Below are positions 1 through 56,469 of a DNA stretch of 56,469 nt, in pieces. The stretch covers positions 1 to 56,469 of the forward strand of contig SUUS01000008.1 in the NCBI GenBank assembly GCA_015062395.1, in the 5' to 3' direction. Under the pieces are notes generated by a model. The model did not search any database. It saw only the letters and a list, made by a program, of their open reading frames with translations, and was not told the origin of the DNA. The DNA is from Alphaproteobacteria bacterium. Its GTDB lineage: Bacteria > Pseudomonadota > Alphaproteobacteria > CAAHEQ01 > UBA3637. The position numbers and the translations under genes were made by a program. Numbering within the stretch: the stretch's first letter is position 1; each line of letters starts with the position of its first letter.

Positions 1-2228
1 AGCCTGCGACTTGTCCTTTAGCAACAACGGGTTGTTTAAGTGGTTGCTGTACTGAATATGCAGGAGGAGAAGTTTGTGGCTCTCCATGTAATTCTGGATA
101 CATTGACCACACGTCCAGCAAGCCGACGGGCGATTGTTGTGATGAAACCTCTGTTAATTGTTGTCCGTTGATTGAAGGCGATTGTGATTGCAATAAAGGT
201 CCGTCTTGTTCTTCTTCAAGTTCATCTAGTTCTTCGAGTAGTTCTTCAAGCAGTTCTTCGTCTTCTTCGAGTAGTTCGAGCTCGTCCTCTAGTTCTTCGT
301 CAAGTTCTAGCTCGTCAAGTTCATCTTCTTCCTCGAGCTCATCGTCGAGTAGTAGCTCTTCAAGTTCTAGCTCGAGCAGCTCGTCGTCTAGCTCATCAAG
401 TAGTTCTTCATCGAGCTCTTCGTCAAGTTCATCAAGTAGCTCTAGCTCGTCAAGCTCAAGCAGTAGTTCTAGTAGCTCGTCTTCGAGTTCATCATCTTCC
501 TCGAGCTCAAGTAGTTCTTCATCATCCAGTTCGAGTTCTTCGTCAAGTTCGAGTAGTAGTAGTTCTTCAAGTAGTAGTTCATCTTCGAGCAGTTCGTCGA
601 GCTCTTCGTCCTCTAGTTCTTCTTCTAGCAGTTCTTCTTCATCAAGTAGTAGTAGTTCTTCAAGTAGTAGTTCCTCGAGTTCTAGTAGCAGTAGCAGTAG
701 TAGTTCGTCGAGCAGTTCGTCTAGCTCATCTTCGAGTTCAAGCTCTTCAAGCTCGAGCAGTAGCTCAAGCTCTTCGTCCTCTAGTTCTTCGTCTTCAAGC
801 TCAAGCTCAAGTAGCTCGTCCTCGAGTTCTAGCAGTAGTTCGTCCTCGAGTTCTTCGTCAAGTTCAAGCTCATCAAGTTCCAGCAGTTCGAGTTCTTCAA
901 GTAGTTCTTCGAGTTCGAGCTCAAGCAGTTCTTCGTCATCTGGTGGGGGATGCGTAACGGATGAGGATTGTCAGACATGCGAAGAAGAAAATCCATGCTT
1001 ACGCTGTGTTGCTGATGAAACTGGAGAAAAATCCTGTCTGATGGTTGGTCAATTATGGCGTGATGGAAATGGTCCTTTACAATGTTGCTACGACGACAAT
1101 TCAAATGGAACACATAACCAAGCATATTATTCTAGTTTTAAAGTTAAATCAGGCTGTGATGATATGTGCCTTGACGACAACGATAACGCACATGTAACTA
1201 TTTGTGGAGAAAGATACTTTTTAGGAAATATGTGCTGTCCGTCAACAACTACAAGTGGTATCGGTCTTTGTGGTAATATCAGAATTACTGCTGAATCTGG
1301 TCACCCACAAATTGATACGGATGGAAATTGGAGTTGTTGCCCCTCATTTGCGTATGATGTCGTTCCTGTTCATGGTCAATCGGCTCGACCAGATAATTAT
1401 CGTCAAACTTTGTGTTGTCCTCAAAATGATAAAGCATATTATGATATTAATACTGGTTCGGCTCGTTGCTGTCCTGGCTCTAATCAAACGCTTTTACAAA
1501 ACAAAGTCGATGGTGTTCAAGGGTATAATCCTGCCGTTGCTGCTAAACATTGTTGCCCTGCCGATACCGATGCCTATTGGAATGGTTCTTCTGTCCAGTG
1601 TTGCGATGGAACAGCATATAAAAATAGCGAAAATACATACGCTTGTTGCGATACAAACAACGGTTATGCTGTTTCAGATGTTCAAGGTGCGACAATAAAT
1701 GGATTGCAATATTGTTGTCCTACAGGTTCCAACGCTTATTGGTATCGTTCAAGAGCTCAATGTTGCAAAGGAAATGTCGGTTGTACTACTTATGAAGGAG
1801 AGGAAGTTTGTACTTGCTGTCCTGAAGGTTACAATTTTTATGCTACGGTTGACGAAACTATCTCAACGGATTATCCTTACGGAGTTTGTTGTACAACTGA
1901 TCCCAATACTAGCCCATATCAAGCTTGGTTTAATGCAGATGGCACTTTTAGAGAGAACGTAGCGAACGGATTGGCATGTTGCCCCCTTGATCGCCCAATT
2001 CGTGGCCCTCTTTGGCGTACTTACGAACTTGACGGTAGCTATATACAGGAATTTAATTGTTATAAAAAAGGGGAAACTCCAGAGGCAGTATATCGTAGCG
2101 GCAACTATGAAACCTATGCCTACTGTCCTAATGGTTATAGTGAATGGTATGATGATGATACATATTCCTCCGAAGGAATAAAGGTTCCTTGCCGTCCTGG
2201 CTACGTCTGTCAGAGAGATTGTCTGTAA
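1..2228 (+). CDS. Cysteine-rich surface protein with 244-serine tract (5' partial)
   Basis: The reading frame is open from base 3, so the true start lies left of the window. A TTG at 168 is probably not the start, because cysteine-rich coding sequence continues upstream of it. The visible 741 residues are a short Cys-rich segment (about 1-69), an uninterrupted run of 244 serines (bases 210-941), and a Cys-rich C-terminal part with repeated units of the type CCP...AYW.GSS.QCC...Y...TYACCDTNNG. The same units occur in the protein at 54311-56469, and the complete relative at 41519-42739 has a prepilin-like N terminus. I infer an exported, disulfide-stabilised surface protein in which the serine run is a flexible stalk. 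Its function is unknown. A hairpin terminator follows at about 2273. Confidence 0.85.
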   Translation, partial: PATCPLATTGCLSGCCTEYAGGEVCGSPCNSGYIDHTSSKPTGDCCDETSVNCCPLIEGDCDCNKGPSCSSSSSSSSSSSSSSSSSSSSSSSSSSSSSSSSSSSSSSSSSSSSSSSSSSSSSSSSSSSSSSSSSSSSSSSSSSSSSSSSSSSSSSSSSSSSSSSSSSSSSSSSSSSSSSSSSSSSSSSSSSSSSSSSSSSSSSSSSSSSSSSSSSSSSSSSSSSSSSSSSSSSSSSSSSSSSSSSSSSSSSSSSSSSSSSSSSSSSSSSSSSSSSSSSSSSSSSSSSSSSSSSSSSSSSSSSSSSSSSSSSSSGGGCVTDEDCQTCEEENPCLRCVADETGEKSCLMVGQLWRDGNGPLQCCYDDNSNGTHNQAYYSSFKVKSGCDDMCLDDNDNAHVTICGERYFLGNMCCPSTTTSGIGLCGNIRITAESGHPQIDTDGNWSCCPSFAYDVVPVHGQSARPDNYRQTLCCPQNDKAYYDINTGSARCCPGSNQTLLQNKVDGVQGYNPAVAAKHCCPADTDAYWNGSSVQCCDGTAYKNSENTYACCDTNNGYAVSDVQGATINGLQYCCPTGSNAYWYRSRAQCCKGNVGCTTYEGEEVCTCCPEGYNFYATVDETISTDYPYGVCCTTDPNTSPYQAWFNADGTFRENVANGLACCPLDRPIRGPLWRTYELDGSYIQEFNCYKKGETPEAVYRSGNYETYAYCPNGYSEWYDDDTYSSEGIKVPCRPGYVCQRDCL
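210..941 (+). repeat. 244-codon polyserine tract
   Basis: Every in-frame codon from 210 to 941 encodes serine. All six serine codons are used (TCT, TCC, TCA, TCG, AGT, AGC), with no simple period visible. TCN and AGY codons cannot interconvert by one base change without leaving serine. The mixture therefore argues for selection on the amino acid, or old expansion of mixed units, rather than recent slippage of one triplet. Confidence 0.95.
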
Positions 2229-41518: not shown

Positions 41519-42739
41519 TTATAATTTTGCCCCCTTACACATAGTACCACTATAACATTGAAAACCTTCTTTATATGCGTTTTCTATACCATTTGGACAG
41601 CATTCGGAATACCCCCATGAATTAATGCCAGTATATCCACTTTTGCAACAGGCTTTTCCACCGCCTAAAGCATCAGAAACTTGATCAGGACTTTTACAAC
41701 ACCCCTGCTCATAATCTGAAATATCATAAACTACCCCATCATCACAACAAACGCTTTCACCATAATCAGAAGCGCCCTCCCATGGTTCATAGACATCTCC
41801 ATCGCAACATTTTTTACTATTTTCAGAACCGTACACTTTTTCATTTTCGCAACAAGTACCCAAAGGCATACAAGTTGTTCCTTCAGGACAATAAGTAGGA
41901 CCACAAACCAACTCACCATCAGCACCTCTGATAGGATTAGCGCATTCGCATTTGTTTTCATCATAATCAGGATGTCCTGCCTGCCCTTTACAATTTAAAT
42001 CTTCTGCTGTCACATCTACACAAACATTTTCTGTACATCTTTGGCAAGTCTTATCACATATCTTTACCCATTCATGTCCTAAACAGGTATAACATGCTGG
42101 ATAGGTTGGCGCTTCTTGACAATAACCTGCAACGCAGCAACCACTAGCGCATTCGGTATCTTTTGTACATGCATCAGGAACAGGAGGATTATTACAATTA
42201 TCGCATTCTCCAAAATAAAAAGCCATAGTTTTATTTTCTTCTATACAATCGCGTTCTGAAGCATTTTCAGTATTTGAGTCAGGATGATTGTTTTCAAAAT
42301 AAGACGCATTAGTCCCTACCATAATTAAATCAATATCGGTTGGTTTCATACTGATAATGCGTTTACATACAGCTTCAGGAACATCCGATACCACAACGCG
42401 ATACAAAAAAGCATATCCATCAGGTTCAGATTTAGTTTCTACAGCATAATTAATGGAGTTTTTGTTTCCTAAATCCACAAAGTTATATTCATCAGGACGA
42501 TTAGGAGTATTATAAGTTTCATACACCATAGGAACATTAGAAGCACGCAACATGACATCATGAATAGTTTGATTAGCTCTGTAATAAGTCATAGCAATAG
42601 CATAAGCAGCCAATCCAGCCAAAGACAAAATACCAACGATTGCTAATATACCCAGCATTTCAACCATAGAACGTCCCGATTGAATAAGTTGTTTTAACGC
42701 TTTTTTGAAATGAAATAGTTTAAAAAAAAGCCTCTGCAT
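41519..42739 (-). CDS. Prepilin-like cysteine-rich surface protein
   Basis: A 406-residue protein. A type III (prepilin-type) signal is present: basic leader, predicted cleavage after Gly22, then RSMVEM with the conserved Glu at +5 and a hydrophobic helix to about residue 50. A pilin-like region follows (about 55-175), containing PTDIDLIMVGTNASYFENNHP. Then come many Cys-rich short modules (ECASGCC, ACYTCLGHEW, KTCQRC, several CC pairs). The same ENNHPNSN and Cys modules recur in the protein at the right edge. Likely a pseudopilin-anchored surface protein. The only usable start codon lies in the loop of a terminator hairpin. Confidence 0.85.
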   Translation of the reverse strand: MQRLFFKLFHFKKALKQLIQSGRSMVEMLGILAIVGILSLAGLAAYAIAMTYYRANQTIHDVMLRASNVPMVYETYNTPNRPDEYNFVDLGNKNSINYAVETKSEPDGYAFLYRVVVSDVPEAVCKRIISMKPTDIDLIMVGTNASYFENNHPDSNTENASERDCIEENKTMAFYFGECDNCNNPPVPDACTKDTECASGCCVAGYCQEAPTYPACYTCLGHEWVKICDKTCQRCTENVCVDVTAEDLNCKGQAGHPDYDENKCECANPIRGADGELVCGPTYCPEGTTCMPLGTCCENEKVYGSENSKKCCDGDVYEPWEGASDYGESVCCDDGVVYDISDYEQGCCKSPDQVSDALGGGKACCKSGYTGINSWGYSECCPNGIENAYKEGFQCYSGTMCKGAKL

Positions 42740-42753
42740 TAACAGAGGCTTTT
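42726..42753 (-). terminator. secDF terminator whose loop contains the next gene's start codon
   Basis: GCCTCTG (42730-42736) pairs with CAGAGGC (42743-42749), flanked by A and T runs. On the minus strand an 8-T run follows, so it looks like the rho-independent terminator of secF. The 6-base loop holds the ATG (42737-42739) of the prepilin-like gene. Confidence 0.8.
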
Positions 42754-48688: not shown

Positions 48689-50791
48689 TTATTCTTTTTT
48701 ATGTTGTCTATCATCGTTCACAGCTTTAGCGCAAGGATTTGATAGAAATTCATTTGCTTCTTGCATTAATTGACGATAAACAGGTCCTGTCATTTGATCA
48801 TAAAAATCACGACGAGGTCCAACCTTTAGAAACATCATTTTATCATTTTTCACAAGATAAGCGACACGATAAGGCGTCCCTTGTGAATCAAACAAATCAA
48901 AACAAGCTAAATCCAAAGAATAAGCTTTCCATTCATCAGATAAAATTTGGCTCATTTCTTCTCTTGAAGCCGTAGAGCGTTCATATATTTTTTCATTAAT
49001 TTGTTCGAACAGAAGTTTTTCCCTTAAATCTGTCGAATTTTCCAAATGTTTCAATTCACGTTTAAATAATTTTGAAAAAGCATACAAGCGACAAACTCTT
49101 GGCGTTTCAACTTGTTGAATTTCAGCCGTTTCTTTTGGTGTGTTTTTCTTTTTTATTTTCTTTGTTTTTGTCGGCAATTGCTCTATTGGCTCATTGTATC
49201 CAGAAAGTTCTTCACGCAAAACATCAAATTCTTCAGATAACCATCTGCGAAAAGCAGGCGTGGCAAAATTGAAACAATTTTCTAACAATCCTTCAGATTT
49301 TAAAAGTAAATAATCATCGTGTGTCAAACGTCTGAAAAAAGTTTTATCAGCTTTTTCACTCGCCATTGCTAAAATACTTTCACCTTTTTCGTCCTTGATA
49401 TTTAAAACTTTTATAAAGTTTTGAGATGATAACTTTAAGGCATCTCGAATATCGAATAACACAGATGTTTTTTTCGTTTTTAAAGCTTTTAATGCAACGG
49501 TATTTTCTCGCATCAAAAAAGCAGCCTCCAGAGGTGAATTAGCTAAAAATGCAATAAAATCTTGAGGATAAGAAAGAATAAAATCTGCTCCTTTTTCTCT
49601 GCTTGGAAAAGACCATAAAAATTGCAACAAATCGACAGGTATTTTTTCTTCTGGCTTTCTGTTTGCATGAATACAGTTTGAAATTTCTAAAACTTGCTCC
49701 TTTGACAAAAGGTCCTTTTTGTTTAAAAGTGGCAAAACACGATAATCTTTTCCATCTTTTGTCACTTCTAACCCTCTTAAAAAAGAGATATTTTCTTTTG
49801 TCTGTGGAGATTTTAAAAATAAATTGCAAAAATTCTTTAATTCCCATTCATAAAAAGAAGACAATACTTTTTTTAAAAAAGCTTTGTCCATATGTACTCG
49901 AAAGAAGTTTTGAAAAATCGATGCATCTTTTTGTTGTGTGGCATAATTTATCAATTCTTTTATGACACAATAACGGCTTTTATCATCATCATAAAAGGAC
50001 AATCTGCGTTCATGAGCCATTGTTTCTGCAATGGATTTTCCATTTTCTGCGAATAAAAATGAAAAAAACCATTTTTTTTGTTCAGGCTCGAGTTCTTCTG
50101 TTTTTTTCAGATATTCGGGAAATGCAGAACCATCTTTCCCCCCCATTATCATCGTTGTAAAAATACGAGGAAGCATTTTTACGTTCATAAAAATTGTTTC
50201 TGCACTAACAGATTTTAAAAAGACTGATGACAAAGAAGTATCGTATAAGTAAGAAAACAATTTTTTAGAACTTTCATCAGGAGAATCTTTTGAACCTAAT
50301 AAAATTTCTAATTCGTTTGGATGATTTTTATAAAGAACAAATATCTGACGCATTAAAGAATACTCTTTTAAATCTGCCAATCGTGAGTATGTGTAAGTTT
50401 TCATCATCATCTGATGGAAACCTGTAAAATCGAAACTATAAGCGTCTAAAATATCTTTCATAACCTCTCGACCTCGTCGTGTCAGTCGAGTTTCTTTACA
50501 AATACTCATTAAAATATCATCTAAAGAATTTTTATATTTATCTATTAAATAAATAACATTTAAATAATGAATACTTATACCAGCCTTTAAAAAAAATGGA
50601 AAATTAGACAAGGTCAATTTTTTATTCGAAGCTTTCATCAACGCATGAACTTCATGTTGATTCTTGGTTAATTCAGCTTTGAAAGAATCCAGTTGCCACA
50701 AAAACATAACACGATTAGGATCTACCAAATCGCATACAAACGCCCCATTTAAAACAGGTGGCATTGCAAAATCTTCGACTGAATTATCCAA
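48689..50791 (-). CDS. Large unrecognised helical protein with RelE-like C-terminal segment
   Basis: A 700-residue protein without signal peptide or membrane segments. Most of it is predicted helical solenoid-like sequence, including one ankyrin-like stretch NIKDEKGESILAMASEKAD (about 455-475). A Lys-rich linker (about 545-560) follows. Near residues 650-675, PYRVAYLVKNDKMMFLKVGPRRDFYD resembles the last strands of RelE/ParE-type ribonuclease toxins. The start is TTG with AAGGA 8 bases upstream. Function unknown; the RelE resemblance is by eye. Confidence 0.7.
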   Translation of the reverse strand: MDNSVEDFAMPPVLNGAFVCDLVDPNRVMFLWQLDSFKAELTKNQHEVHALMKASNKKLTLSNFPFFLKAGISIHYLNVIYLIDKYKNSLDDILMSICKETRLTRRGREVMKDILDAYSFDFTGFHQMMMKTYTYSRLADLKEYSLMRQIFVLYKNHPNELEILLGSKDSPDESSKKLFSYLYDTSLSSVFLKSVSAETIFMNVKMLPRIFTTMIMGGKDGSAFPEYLKKTEELEPEQKKWFFSFLFAENGKSIAETMAHERRLSFYDDDKSRYCVIKELINYATQQKDASIFQNFFRVHMDKAFLKKVLSSFYEWELKNFCNLFLKSPQTKENISFLRGLEVTKDGKDYRVLPLLNKKDLLSKEQVLEISNCIHANRKPEEKIPVDLLQFLWSFPSREKGADFILSYPQDFIAFLANSPLEAAFLMRENTVALKALKTKKTSVLFDIRDALKLSSQNFIKVLNIKDEKGESILAMASEKADKTFFRRLTHDDYLLLKSEGLLENCFNFATPAFRRWLSEEFDVLREELSGYNEPIEQLPTKTKKIKKKNTPKETAEIQQVETPRVCRLYAFSKLFKRELKHLENSTDLREKLLFEQINEKIYERSTASREEMSQILSDEWKAYSLDLACFDLFDSQGTPYRVAYLVKNDKMMFLKVGPRRDFYDQMTGPVYRQLMQEANEFLSNPCAKAVNDDRQHKKE

Positions 50792-54310: not shown

Positions 54311-56469
54311 TCAGTATGAACTAACTGGTCTAGCTGTTACGACACAAGTATCGGGTCGTTCTGCCGTATAACATGCCTTGACATTATCTTTATTACAATT
54401 TTCAGGACATGCTGGCCAACTACCACCACCACCAGCATAGGAACACTCTCCAGCAAGCGTTTTGACAGGACCAACACAATCAACACGGAATTGGTAAACA
54501 AGATAATTAGGATAATGAAGATTAATGTCCACAAATGTTTTTCCTGGTTTTTCTATACTGCAATCACCCATGTTTCCACAAGCACCTGGACAGCAATAAT
54601 TGTCGCAATTATCAGCAGTAGCCCCAGTTTTGCAAGCATCATAATCATTACCATAACAAGCATGCCCTTCTGCAGGGATAAAGTGATCATAGCTGAAACA
54701 ACCACCATTCGATACAAAACCACACCTGCAACAATCATTTCCCATTTCTAGAGTGTTATAAAAAACCTCTCCTCCACCGTCACAACATTTCCATTCACCA
54801 CCATCAGAACACGCACCGAATCCTTCAAAATACGGATAACCTGTACAATAAATTTCACCATCGCAACACATACAATGCTCACTTCCATCGATTTTGTCTG
54901 TGACGCATTTGTATTCACCTTTGCAACAATGAGCTTGTTCATCATCCCAATAAGAATTTGGCGTTTCACTTGGACAACAATGTTGTAAACCTGATGTCGG
55001 TGCATTCTGAACATATGCAACAACGTTTCCATTGTTCGTATCGCAACAAGCATAAGAAGTTTCCCTATTATTTTCCCCATATTTATATACCGTTCCAGAA
55101 CAGCATTGAGCACTGGAACCATCCCAATATGCAGTTTGCCCCGATGGACAGCATTTTTGTAAACCAGAAATTTCAGCACCTAAAACTTCTACGACGGATT
55201 TGCCATTGTTTGTATCGCAACAAGTGTATAAGCCTTCCCCCTCTTTATATACCGTTCCTGCGCAACATTGAGCAGAAGAACCATCCCAATACGCAGATTG
55301 CCCCGATGGACAACATTTTTGTAGTCCTGAAATTTCAGCTCCGTTAACTTCTACTAGGGATTTATCTTTATCAGTTTCGCAACAAAGATCTTTTTGGGTT
55401 TCATCTTGATAAAGCGTTCCTGAGCAACATAATGCAGCAGAACCATCCCAATAAGCAGATTGCCCCGATGGACAGCATTTTTGTAAATCAGCTATGGAAC
55501 TTCCTGCGACATTTACAACTGTATTTTCTTCAGTAATTTTACAGCAATCATATGTTTCTTCAGAATTTTTGTAAACTTGATTTTCTTCCTCACAACACAA
55601 CGCTGCCGCTCCGTTCCAATAAGCTGCTTGACCTGATAAACAACAAACTTGAGCATTGGAATTTCCCTGCGCACTTAAAAGCTTTTCATCCTCACTAGTA
55701 TTGCAGCAACCATATGCCGTTTCAGATATTTGGTAAATTCTGTTTTTACTATCACAACACAGGACTGAAGAACCATCCCAGTAAGGCATAGAATCAAAAA
55801 GATTTCCTGGACAACAAGCATCCTGTTCACTTCCGATAGGTAATCCTTGAATGGCGTTATACTTAGTCGTTCCTTCTGGACATCCATCTCCTCCAGAGCT
55901 ACTGCTAGAACCTGAAGAACTGGAAGAGGAACCACTACTAGAACTTGAGGATGAGCTACCTGACGACCCCGAACTACCACTGGAACCCGAAGAGCCAGAA
56001 GAACTGGATGAAGAAGAACAACCTTCTTGGGTATAATCTATTTCACACCCCGTTTCAGTACATTTTTGACAATATCCACCACACATATAATTCCATCTGT
56101 GGTTGGAACATGTGTAGCATGCAGCATTTCCTGGAGGCGCTGTACATTGACCTGCAACGCAACATTTGTCTCGTCCACAAGATAGACACCATCCATCAAG
56201 ACCACAACAGCCACTTTCGCAGTCAGAATCTTTTGAACATTTTTGTTCTTCACAAGATTTACACATATTATTTACACAACAAAAACCATCGACACAATCA
56301 TCATCAACGTCACACTCGCCAATAGAACCTACATCATCAAAGTAAAAAGCCATAGCTTTATTGGTTTCGGTACAATCGTTTTTGGTTGCATTTGGCGTAT
56401 TGCTGTTAGGATGATTATTTTCAAAATAAGTCGCATTTTGACCAATCATAATTAAATCTATATCTGTGG
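54311..56469 (-). CDS. Cysteine-repeat surface protein with Ser/Gly linker (5' partial)
   Basis: The frame is open to the right edge; upstream codons read TDIDLIM, matching the pilin-like region of the protein at 41519-42739. The prepilin N terminus is therefore probably beyond the window. In order the visible part has the ENNHPNSN pilin-like end, Cys modules (DCESGCC, CCVAGQC, ACYTCSNHRW), and a Ser/Gly-rich linker of about 45 residues. Tandem CCPSGQ.AYWDGSSAQCC...CCDTNNG repeats follow (about 54 residues each), then a different Cys-rich C-terminal domain. Likely exported, disulfide-rich surface protein; function unknown. Confidence 0.85.
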   Translation of the reverse strand, partial: TDIDLIMIGQNATYFENNHPNSNTPNATKNDCTETNKAMAFYFDDVGSIGECDVDDDCVDGFCCVNNMCKSCEEQKCSKDSDCESGCCGLDGWCLSCGRDKCCVAGQCTAPPGNAACYTCSNHRWNYMCGGYCQKCTETGCEIDYTQEGCSSSSSSSGSSGSSGSSGSSGSSSSSSSSGSSSSSSGSSSSSGGDGCPEGTTKYNAIQGLPIGSEQDACCPGNLFDSMPYWDGSSVLCCDSKNRIYQISETAYGCCNTSEDEKLLSAQGNSNAQVCCLSGQAAYWNGAAALCCEEENQVYKNSEETYDCCKITEENTVVNVAGSSIADLQKCCPSGQSAYWDGSAALCCSGTLYQDETQKDLCCETDKDKSLVEVNGAEISGLQKCCPSGQSAYWDGSSAQCCAGTVYKEGEGLYTCCDTNNGKSVVEVLGAEISGLQKCCPSGQTAYWDGSSAQCCSGTVYKYGENNRETSYACCDTNNGNVVAYVQNAPTSGLQHCCPSETPNSYWDDEQAHCCKGEYKCVTDKIDGSEHCMCCDGEIYCTGYPYFEGFGACSDGGEWKCCDGGGEVFYNTLEMGNDCCRCGFVSNGGCFSYDHFIPAEGHACYGNDYDACKTGATADNCDNYCCPGACGNMGDCSIEKPGKTFVDINLHYPNYLVYQFRVDCVGPVKTLAGECSYAGGGGSWPACPENCNKDNVKACYTAERPDTCVVTARPVSSY
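54965..55835 (-). repeat. Tandem 54-residue cysteine repeats
   Basis: The CCPSGQ coding motif recurs at 54972, 55146, 55308 and 55470. Spacings are 174, 162 and 162 bases, and further diverged copies follow to the right. The last two intervals are exactly 54 codons, and local DNA identity is high, which suggests recent tandem duplication or conversion. Confidence 0.85.

Follow-up and report, generated by a model that had tools for sequence, protein, structure and literature searches.

The 406-aa gene described here probably belongs to a phase-variable, mosaic repertoire of modular type IVb pilins. It lies in a window of 56,469 nucleotides, which is the entire contig C4 of a genome of 1.36 Mb in 40 contigs (G000 below; G001, G017 and so on denote the related genomes with which it was compared). 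In the mechanism we propose, each protein would be made as a prepilin and then cut by the single prepilin peptidase, and its N-terminal pilin domain would let it enter or cap a type IVb pilus. The Cys-rich C-terminal head would be the displayed part, held out in many members on a Ser or Ser/Gly stalk, and the heads would probably bind host, diet or bacterial surfaces. Most members are preceded by a repeated 5′ cassette containing a slippable G/C tract; leaders, pilin domains and heads would be swapped by recombination between near-identical paralogue segments. We see about an even chance for a broader proposal: that a bacterial family of uncultured gut Alphaproteobacteria runs a dedicated pilin-repertoire system, comprising tens of modular type IVb pilins that are switched independently through two portable slippage cassettes and reshuffled by recombination. 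In that case, a clonal population would use a single pilus machine to display disulfide-rich heads in many combinations. The relevant features of the window are:

3..2228, plus strand: left-edge member, open reading frame of 741 aa, truncated on its 5′ side where the contig ends
210..941, plus strand: polyserine stalk of the left-edge member, 244 consecutive Ser
1407..2039, plus strand: CCP repeats of the left-edge member, common to the right-edge member (43–48% identity)
41519..42739, minus strand: complete family member, open reading frame of a predicted modular pilin of 406 aa, with 25 matches within G000
41522..42208, minus strand: Cys-rich head of the 406-aa member, read from the translation, with low model confidence
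42209..42673, minus strand: predicted mature type IVb pilin domain, residues 23–177 (mature 1–155), from the AlphaFold2 model and PDB matches
42726..42753, no strand assigned: terminator-like hairpin 3′ of secF (z −5.9), containing the ATG (42737–42739) of the 406-aa frame
54311..56467, minus strand: right-edge member, open reading frame of 718 aa, truncated on its 5′ side where the contig ends
55073..55491, minus strand: tandem CCP repeats of 162 bp (54 aa), CCPSGQSAYWDGSSAQCC..CCDTNNG, found with TRF
55889..56017, minus strand: 43-residue Ser/Gly linker of the right-edge member
56333..56467, minus strand: C-terminal part of the pilin domain of the right-edge member (TDIDLIM...AMAFYF), from DNA identity to paralogues

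The first-pass annotation had recognised three family members in the window. All three are there, but they form only one corner of a family that we put at about 20 members in G000. The complete gene is an open frame from its ATG, and its translation contains the prepilin-type GRSMVEM, the pilin-like middle with a TDIDLIM...ENNHPDSN segment and the Cys-rich C-terminus that had been described. The edge genes also read as annotated: the right-edge frame runs from TDIDLIM...ENNHPNSN through the Ser/Gly linker to the CCP repeats, and the left-edge frame contains a Cys-rich stretch, the polyserine and CCP repeats of the right-edge kind. The N-termini are absent from both edge frames only because contig C4 ends there. 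The pilin part of the right-edge member is 96–98% identical in DNA to its counterparts on C40, C32, C19 and C12a over 132–141 nt.

The 406-aa protein was modelled with AlphaFold2 on an alignment with 46 relatives. The pLDDT was mostly >90 over mature residues 1–155, and the Cys-rich part was modelled poorly. The mature protein begins with R-S-M-V-E5, directly after the cleavage-site Gly, and the modelled pilin domain consists of a 53-residue N-terminal helix followed by a small alpha/beta head. The top VIA-align match in the PDB was the ETEC type IVb pilus 9iuf (Z 11.5, 154 residues, 3.7 Å); further matches were TcpA 8uhf (Z 10.3), CofA 3vor (9.8), PilS 3fhu (9.4) and C. difficile PilA1 (9.1). 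The top PDB entries were all pilins, mostly type IVb, and the first clearly unrelated chains appeared at Z ~ 4. Residues R1, E5, Cys103 and Cys143 (mature numbering) were invariant in 47 sequences, and the two Cys residues presumably form a disulfide in the pilin domain. One relative also matched, weakly, the Pfam family PilS. By sequence and model, the protein is a modular type IVb pilin with a Cys-rich non-pilin head grafted C-terminally.

The heads themselves resembled no known adhesin family or fold, as judged from Pfam and the model of the CCP repeats, and Pfam and NCBIfam searches of all three window proteins returned nothing relevant. The model of the CCP repeats had a mean pLDDT of 70 and no PDB match at VIA-align Z ≥ 2. 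Weak top Foldseek matches to CD40-like disulfide-rich receptors were not counted as evidence. The six Ser codons are mixed without periodicity in the 244-Ser stalk, with a codon mix that differs from that of housekeeping genes; a slippage origin of the polyserine was rejected on the mixing and the lack of codon periodicity. Related Cys-rich proteins occur elsewhere. On C14 (L067 4782–6329), a CCP-repeat protein starts with an ordinary Sec-type signal peptide instead of a prepilin signal, and shares its repeats with a member on C33 (88% DNA identity over 706 nt); it appears to be a secreted, unanchored relative of the heads. The head of the 406-aa gene shows 80% DNA similarity to the C14 head over 200 nt. 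C33 (L064 3268–9000) also carries two further prepilin genes, arranged divergently beside an integrase-like frame; their products, of 369 aa and ≥1447 aa, have EGF-like Cys repeats. By eye, the terminal domain of the pilins of some relatives (WW..A...C..LG) resembles a lectin, but Pfam gave no match for it.

A profile of the 48-residue prepilin start detected 11–103 prepilin genes in every one of the 33 genomes examined from this bacterial family; elsewhere in the class, only 3 of 24 genomes gave matches. The named relatives are uncultured Alphaproteobacteria, many from herbivore gut or rumen, and no relative of the pilin alignment was found among viral contigs. Family genes also lie on contigs labelled Butyrivibrio and Akkermansia (L093, L140), which are probably misbinned. 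The dN/dS ratio was 0.12–0.30 in the pilin domain, which is under purifying selection; together with the 25 matches of the 406-aa protein within G000, this speaks against a chance resemblance.

Runs of at least nine C or G number 20 in G000, against 0.34 expected, and 18 of them fall within the family: 15 belong to repeated 5′ cassettes of two designs, and 3 lie within the genes themselves. Once copies whose tracts are shorter or interrupted are included, the cassettes number 19, at 19 separate places, each beside a different neighbouring gene and all outside the window. The two designs are:

Class A (translational), ten loci: RBS, ATGTCCATTAATTTATTCAAATTTA or a close variant, C6 to C14, leader to GRSMxEM
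Class B (transcriptional), nine loci: TTGACA, G8 to G19, TATGTTATAAC, strong hairpin, RBS, ATG

In class A, the poly-C lies ~ 25 nt after the ATG in G000 and is interrupted by T in some copies; at this position, slippage would alter the reading frame. The paralogues vary in tract length and frame, and none of the five genes readable through the tract in G000 is intact from its ATG. The genes on C2, C38 and C11 are out of frame, that on C29 is in frame but stopped by TAG, and that on C12a is in frame and carries a later 1-nt frameshift. These broken genes may represent OFF states or decay. In class B, the poly-G forms the spacer between TTGACA (−35) and TATAAC (−10), where slippage would alter promoter strength; the spacer to TATAAC measures 13, 19, 23 or 24 nt where readable, and the 97-nt leader hairpin has a z of −4.2. 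We infer that the tracts act as on/off switches, so that a cell could keep changing the heads it displays, much as some pathogens vary their surface proteins. Since one assembly was compared per species, differences in tract length are known between paralogues only, and no tract was observed at two lengths at the same locus. A missing mismatch-repair gene was rejected as the cause of the tracts, MutS being present in 22 of 23 genomes checked, including G000. At C2:33861–33871 (L193), a G11 tract splits a non-pilin frame into overlapping frames of 253 and 275 aa; this is probably a phase-variable gene of another type.

We must also consider the assembly, which is fragmented and metagenome-like, so that junctions at contig ends call for caution and some could be assembly chimaeras. 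Many G000 contigs break within pilin-family genes, as expected from near-identical paralogues, and several terminate exactly within a tract; the family thus accounts for the assembly breaks in its genes. C2 and C12a sit within long contigs, which frees the class A structure there from junction doubt.

Among the related genomes, G006, G009, G015, G017 and G022 have many G10 or G12 runs, which are absent in G001, G003, G004, G007 and others. G017 belongs to a different genus, and its proteins are ~ 40% identical to the 406-aa query. A prepilin lies within 500 nt downstream of 22 of its 44 tracts, compared with ~ 1 expected; some tracts lack a linked prepilin, so the switches may serve other genes too. 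Both designs occur in G017: class A as RBS-ATG followed by poly-C at ~ 28 nt, and class B as TTGACA-polyG with −10-like hexamers mostly at 18–21 nt. Across 19 class A genes from four genomes, the distance from ATG to tract is mostly 25–31 nt. Both cassette designs are found again in distant genera. G005 was left out of this comparison because the tract contexts inspected there are mostly unrelated to prepilins.

The paralogues in G000 also combine two leaders (A and B) with two pilin types (I and II), and all four combinations are present:

A-I: C19, C12a, C29
A-II: C2, C38
B-I: C6
B-II: C31, C8

The existence of all four argues that the paralogues recombine. C8 and C38 are 97–100% identical at the pilin start and only 44% identical upstream of it, whereas C8 and C6 share 90% identity over 414 nt, upstream cassette included. 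Similar blocks link C40 with C32 (98.6% over 210 nt) and C19 with C12a (95% over 816 nt).

Among copies with a readable 5′ end, the window copy is alone in having no switch cassette, and the only G/C run ≥7 in the window (50138–50144) is far from it. Its ATG lies in the terminator-like hairpin, 22 nt after secF, and a search of the 42726–42753 region for a sigma-70-like promoter found none. The gene may be transcribed by read-through or expressed at a low level, or it may serve as a silent partner in recombination. The last option could extend to the other broken copies, all of them silent donors for gene conversion into a few expression sites, as in Neisseria pilE/pilS. The start of the window gene in a terminator and the mosaic identity blocks are compatible with such a scheme, which we nonetheless judge unlikely. 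Most copies are 5′-truncated only by contig ends, and 19 copies at separate loci have their own cassette with an ATG or promoter, which leaves no single expression site. Neisseria pilE/pilS, by comparison, has one expression locus and 5′-truncated silent copies, an arrangement that the 19 cassette-bearing loci do not share.

The search for machinery covered the components shared with pili. An operon on C22 encodes matches to TcpQ, Secretin, PAP_PilO, T2SSE (ATPase) and T2SSF (inner-membrane protein), and a single prepilin peptidase gene lies on C1, so the peptidase, assembly ATPase and secretin genes that the first-pass annotation proposed as a check are all present, and its reading is not refuted by a lack of pilus machinery. 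Given this operon and the single peptidase, the display machine is likely a type IVb pilus and not the type II pseudopilus that had been suggested. The rest of that reading, prepilin-anchored and disulfide-rich proteins with exchangeable modules, agrees with the pilin fold, the machinery genes and the mosaic recombination. Display on the pilus and binding by the heads are our interpretation of these sequences, and on it the family proteins are probably adhesins. Two small tandem pilins of 136–138 aa on C33 (L065 5441–6739) are likely the major pilin, judging from their size and recurrence in relatives; similar small pilins in three relatives (L218, L225, L280) have G13–15 tracts 336–386 nt upstream. 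C18 (L061, 3383 bases) carries a different prepilin (AFTLAEVLITLAIIGVVAAMT) and a PilT-like ATPase, and looks like a contaminant from another phylum. Next to the pilus operon, on the other strand of C22, are VirB4- and VirB3-like genes (L059 2–1860).

It is also conceivable that the pilins serve mating or phage interplay, the heads choosing recipients or being switched off against pilus-using phages. The VirB-like neighbours of the operon, with a VirB4-type family match, point in this direction, as does the choice of recipients by PilV adhesins in TP114 (PMC9045228). The head repertoire, however, exceeds the shufflons described there (PMC9045228), and we consider this function doubtful. Another alternative is an expanded family of constitutively expressed modular pilins, in which the tracts would be neutral leftovers or assembly trouble spots. 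It would agree with the presence of MutS in G000 and with an expansion that is family-wide, yet accompanied by no G10 tract in many genomes; the nearest relative, G001 of the same genus, and several genera have prepilins and no such tract. Against it, nearly all of the long tracts in G000 lie in cassettes or genes of the pilin family, and a distant genus has tracts at the same two functional positions, after the ATG and between the −35 and the −10. Constitutive expression thus seems quite improbable to us. That the pilins are type II secretion pseudopilins is very improbable: the prepilin signal is common to all type 4 filament proteins, whereas the machinery genes, sought among components shared with pili, match type IVb families (TcpQ, PAP_PilO) and the pilin domain matches major type IVb pilins.

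For the phase-variable pilin repertoire that we favour, searches on prepilins, polyserine, and homopolymeric or modular-pilin phase variation in Alphaproteobacteria found no such system described in the open-licence literature. The earlier statement that nothing described could be matched was too strong, as modular pilins (PMC10191384), the tip pilin TcpB (PMC5207764) and PilV (PMC9045228) are clear precedents. In modular pilins, domains are grafted onto a pilin for adhesion, and PilB and PilC of Streptococcus sanguinis likewise join a pilin domain to extra domains (PMC10191384). The present family differs in its ~ 20 paralogues per genome, its type IVb character, its slippage tracts and its Cys-rich heads on polyserine stalks. 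TcpB and CofB are large minor pilins of type IVb systems, like the family here (PMC5207764). In TP114, a shufflon varies the type IVb adhesin PilV, and PilV of R64/TP114 has, as here, a constant N-terminus and a variable C-terminal part, the adhesin (PMC9045228). It varies at one locus by site-specific inversion, whereas variation here would be spread over many loci and arise through G/C tracts and homologous recombination.

In Saccharophagus degradans, polyserine linkers occur in polysaccharide-degrading enzymes. Long polyserine separates domains of exported proteins in that species (PMC2386152); here it reaches 244 Ser, in a pilin-family protein. In the present uncultured gut Alphaproteobacteria, whose genomes are very small, the sequence signs of slippage and recombination cluster in a single pilin family. 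Pilin variation driven by these two processes is known mainly from pathogens such as Neisseria, whose porA has a poly-G promoter spacer. The family is a testable case of what drives commensal contingency loci: host antibodies, phages or changing binding targets. Phase-variable genes average 54 per genome in gonococci and 39 in meningococci, N. lactamica averages 19.4 poly-G tracts, and phase-variable pilC was found only in the pathogens (PMC5953494). Like the present loci, Neisseria contingency loci have homopolymer tracts in the coding sequence or the promoter spacer of genes for surface proteins, and the numbers of tracts are similar (PMC5953494). In Neisseria, however, the tracts are spread over many gene types, whereas here 18 of 20 belong to one pilin family.
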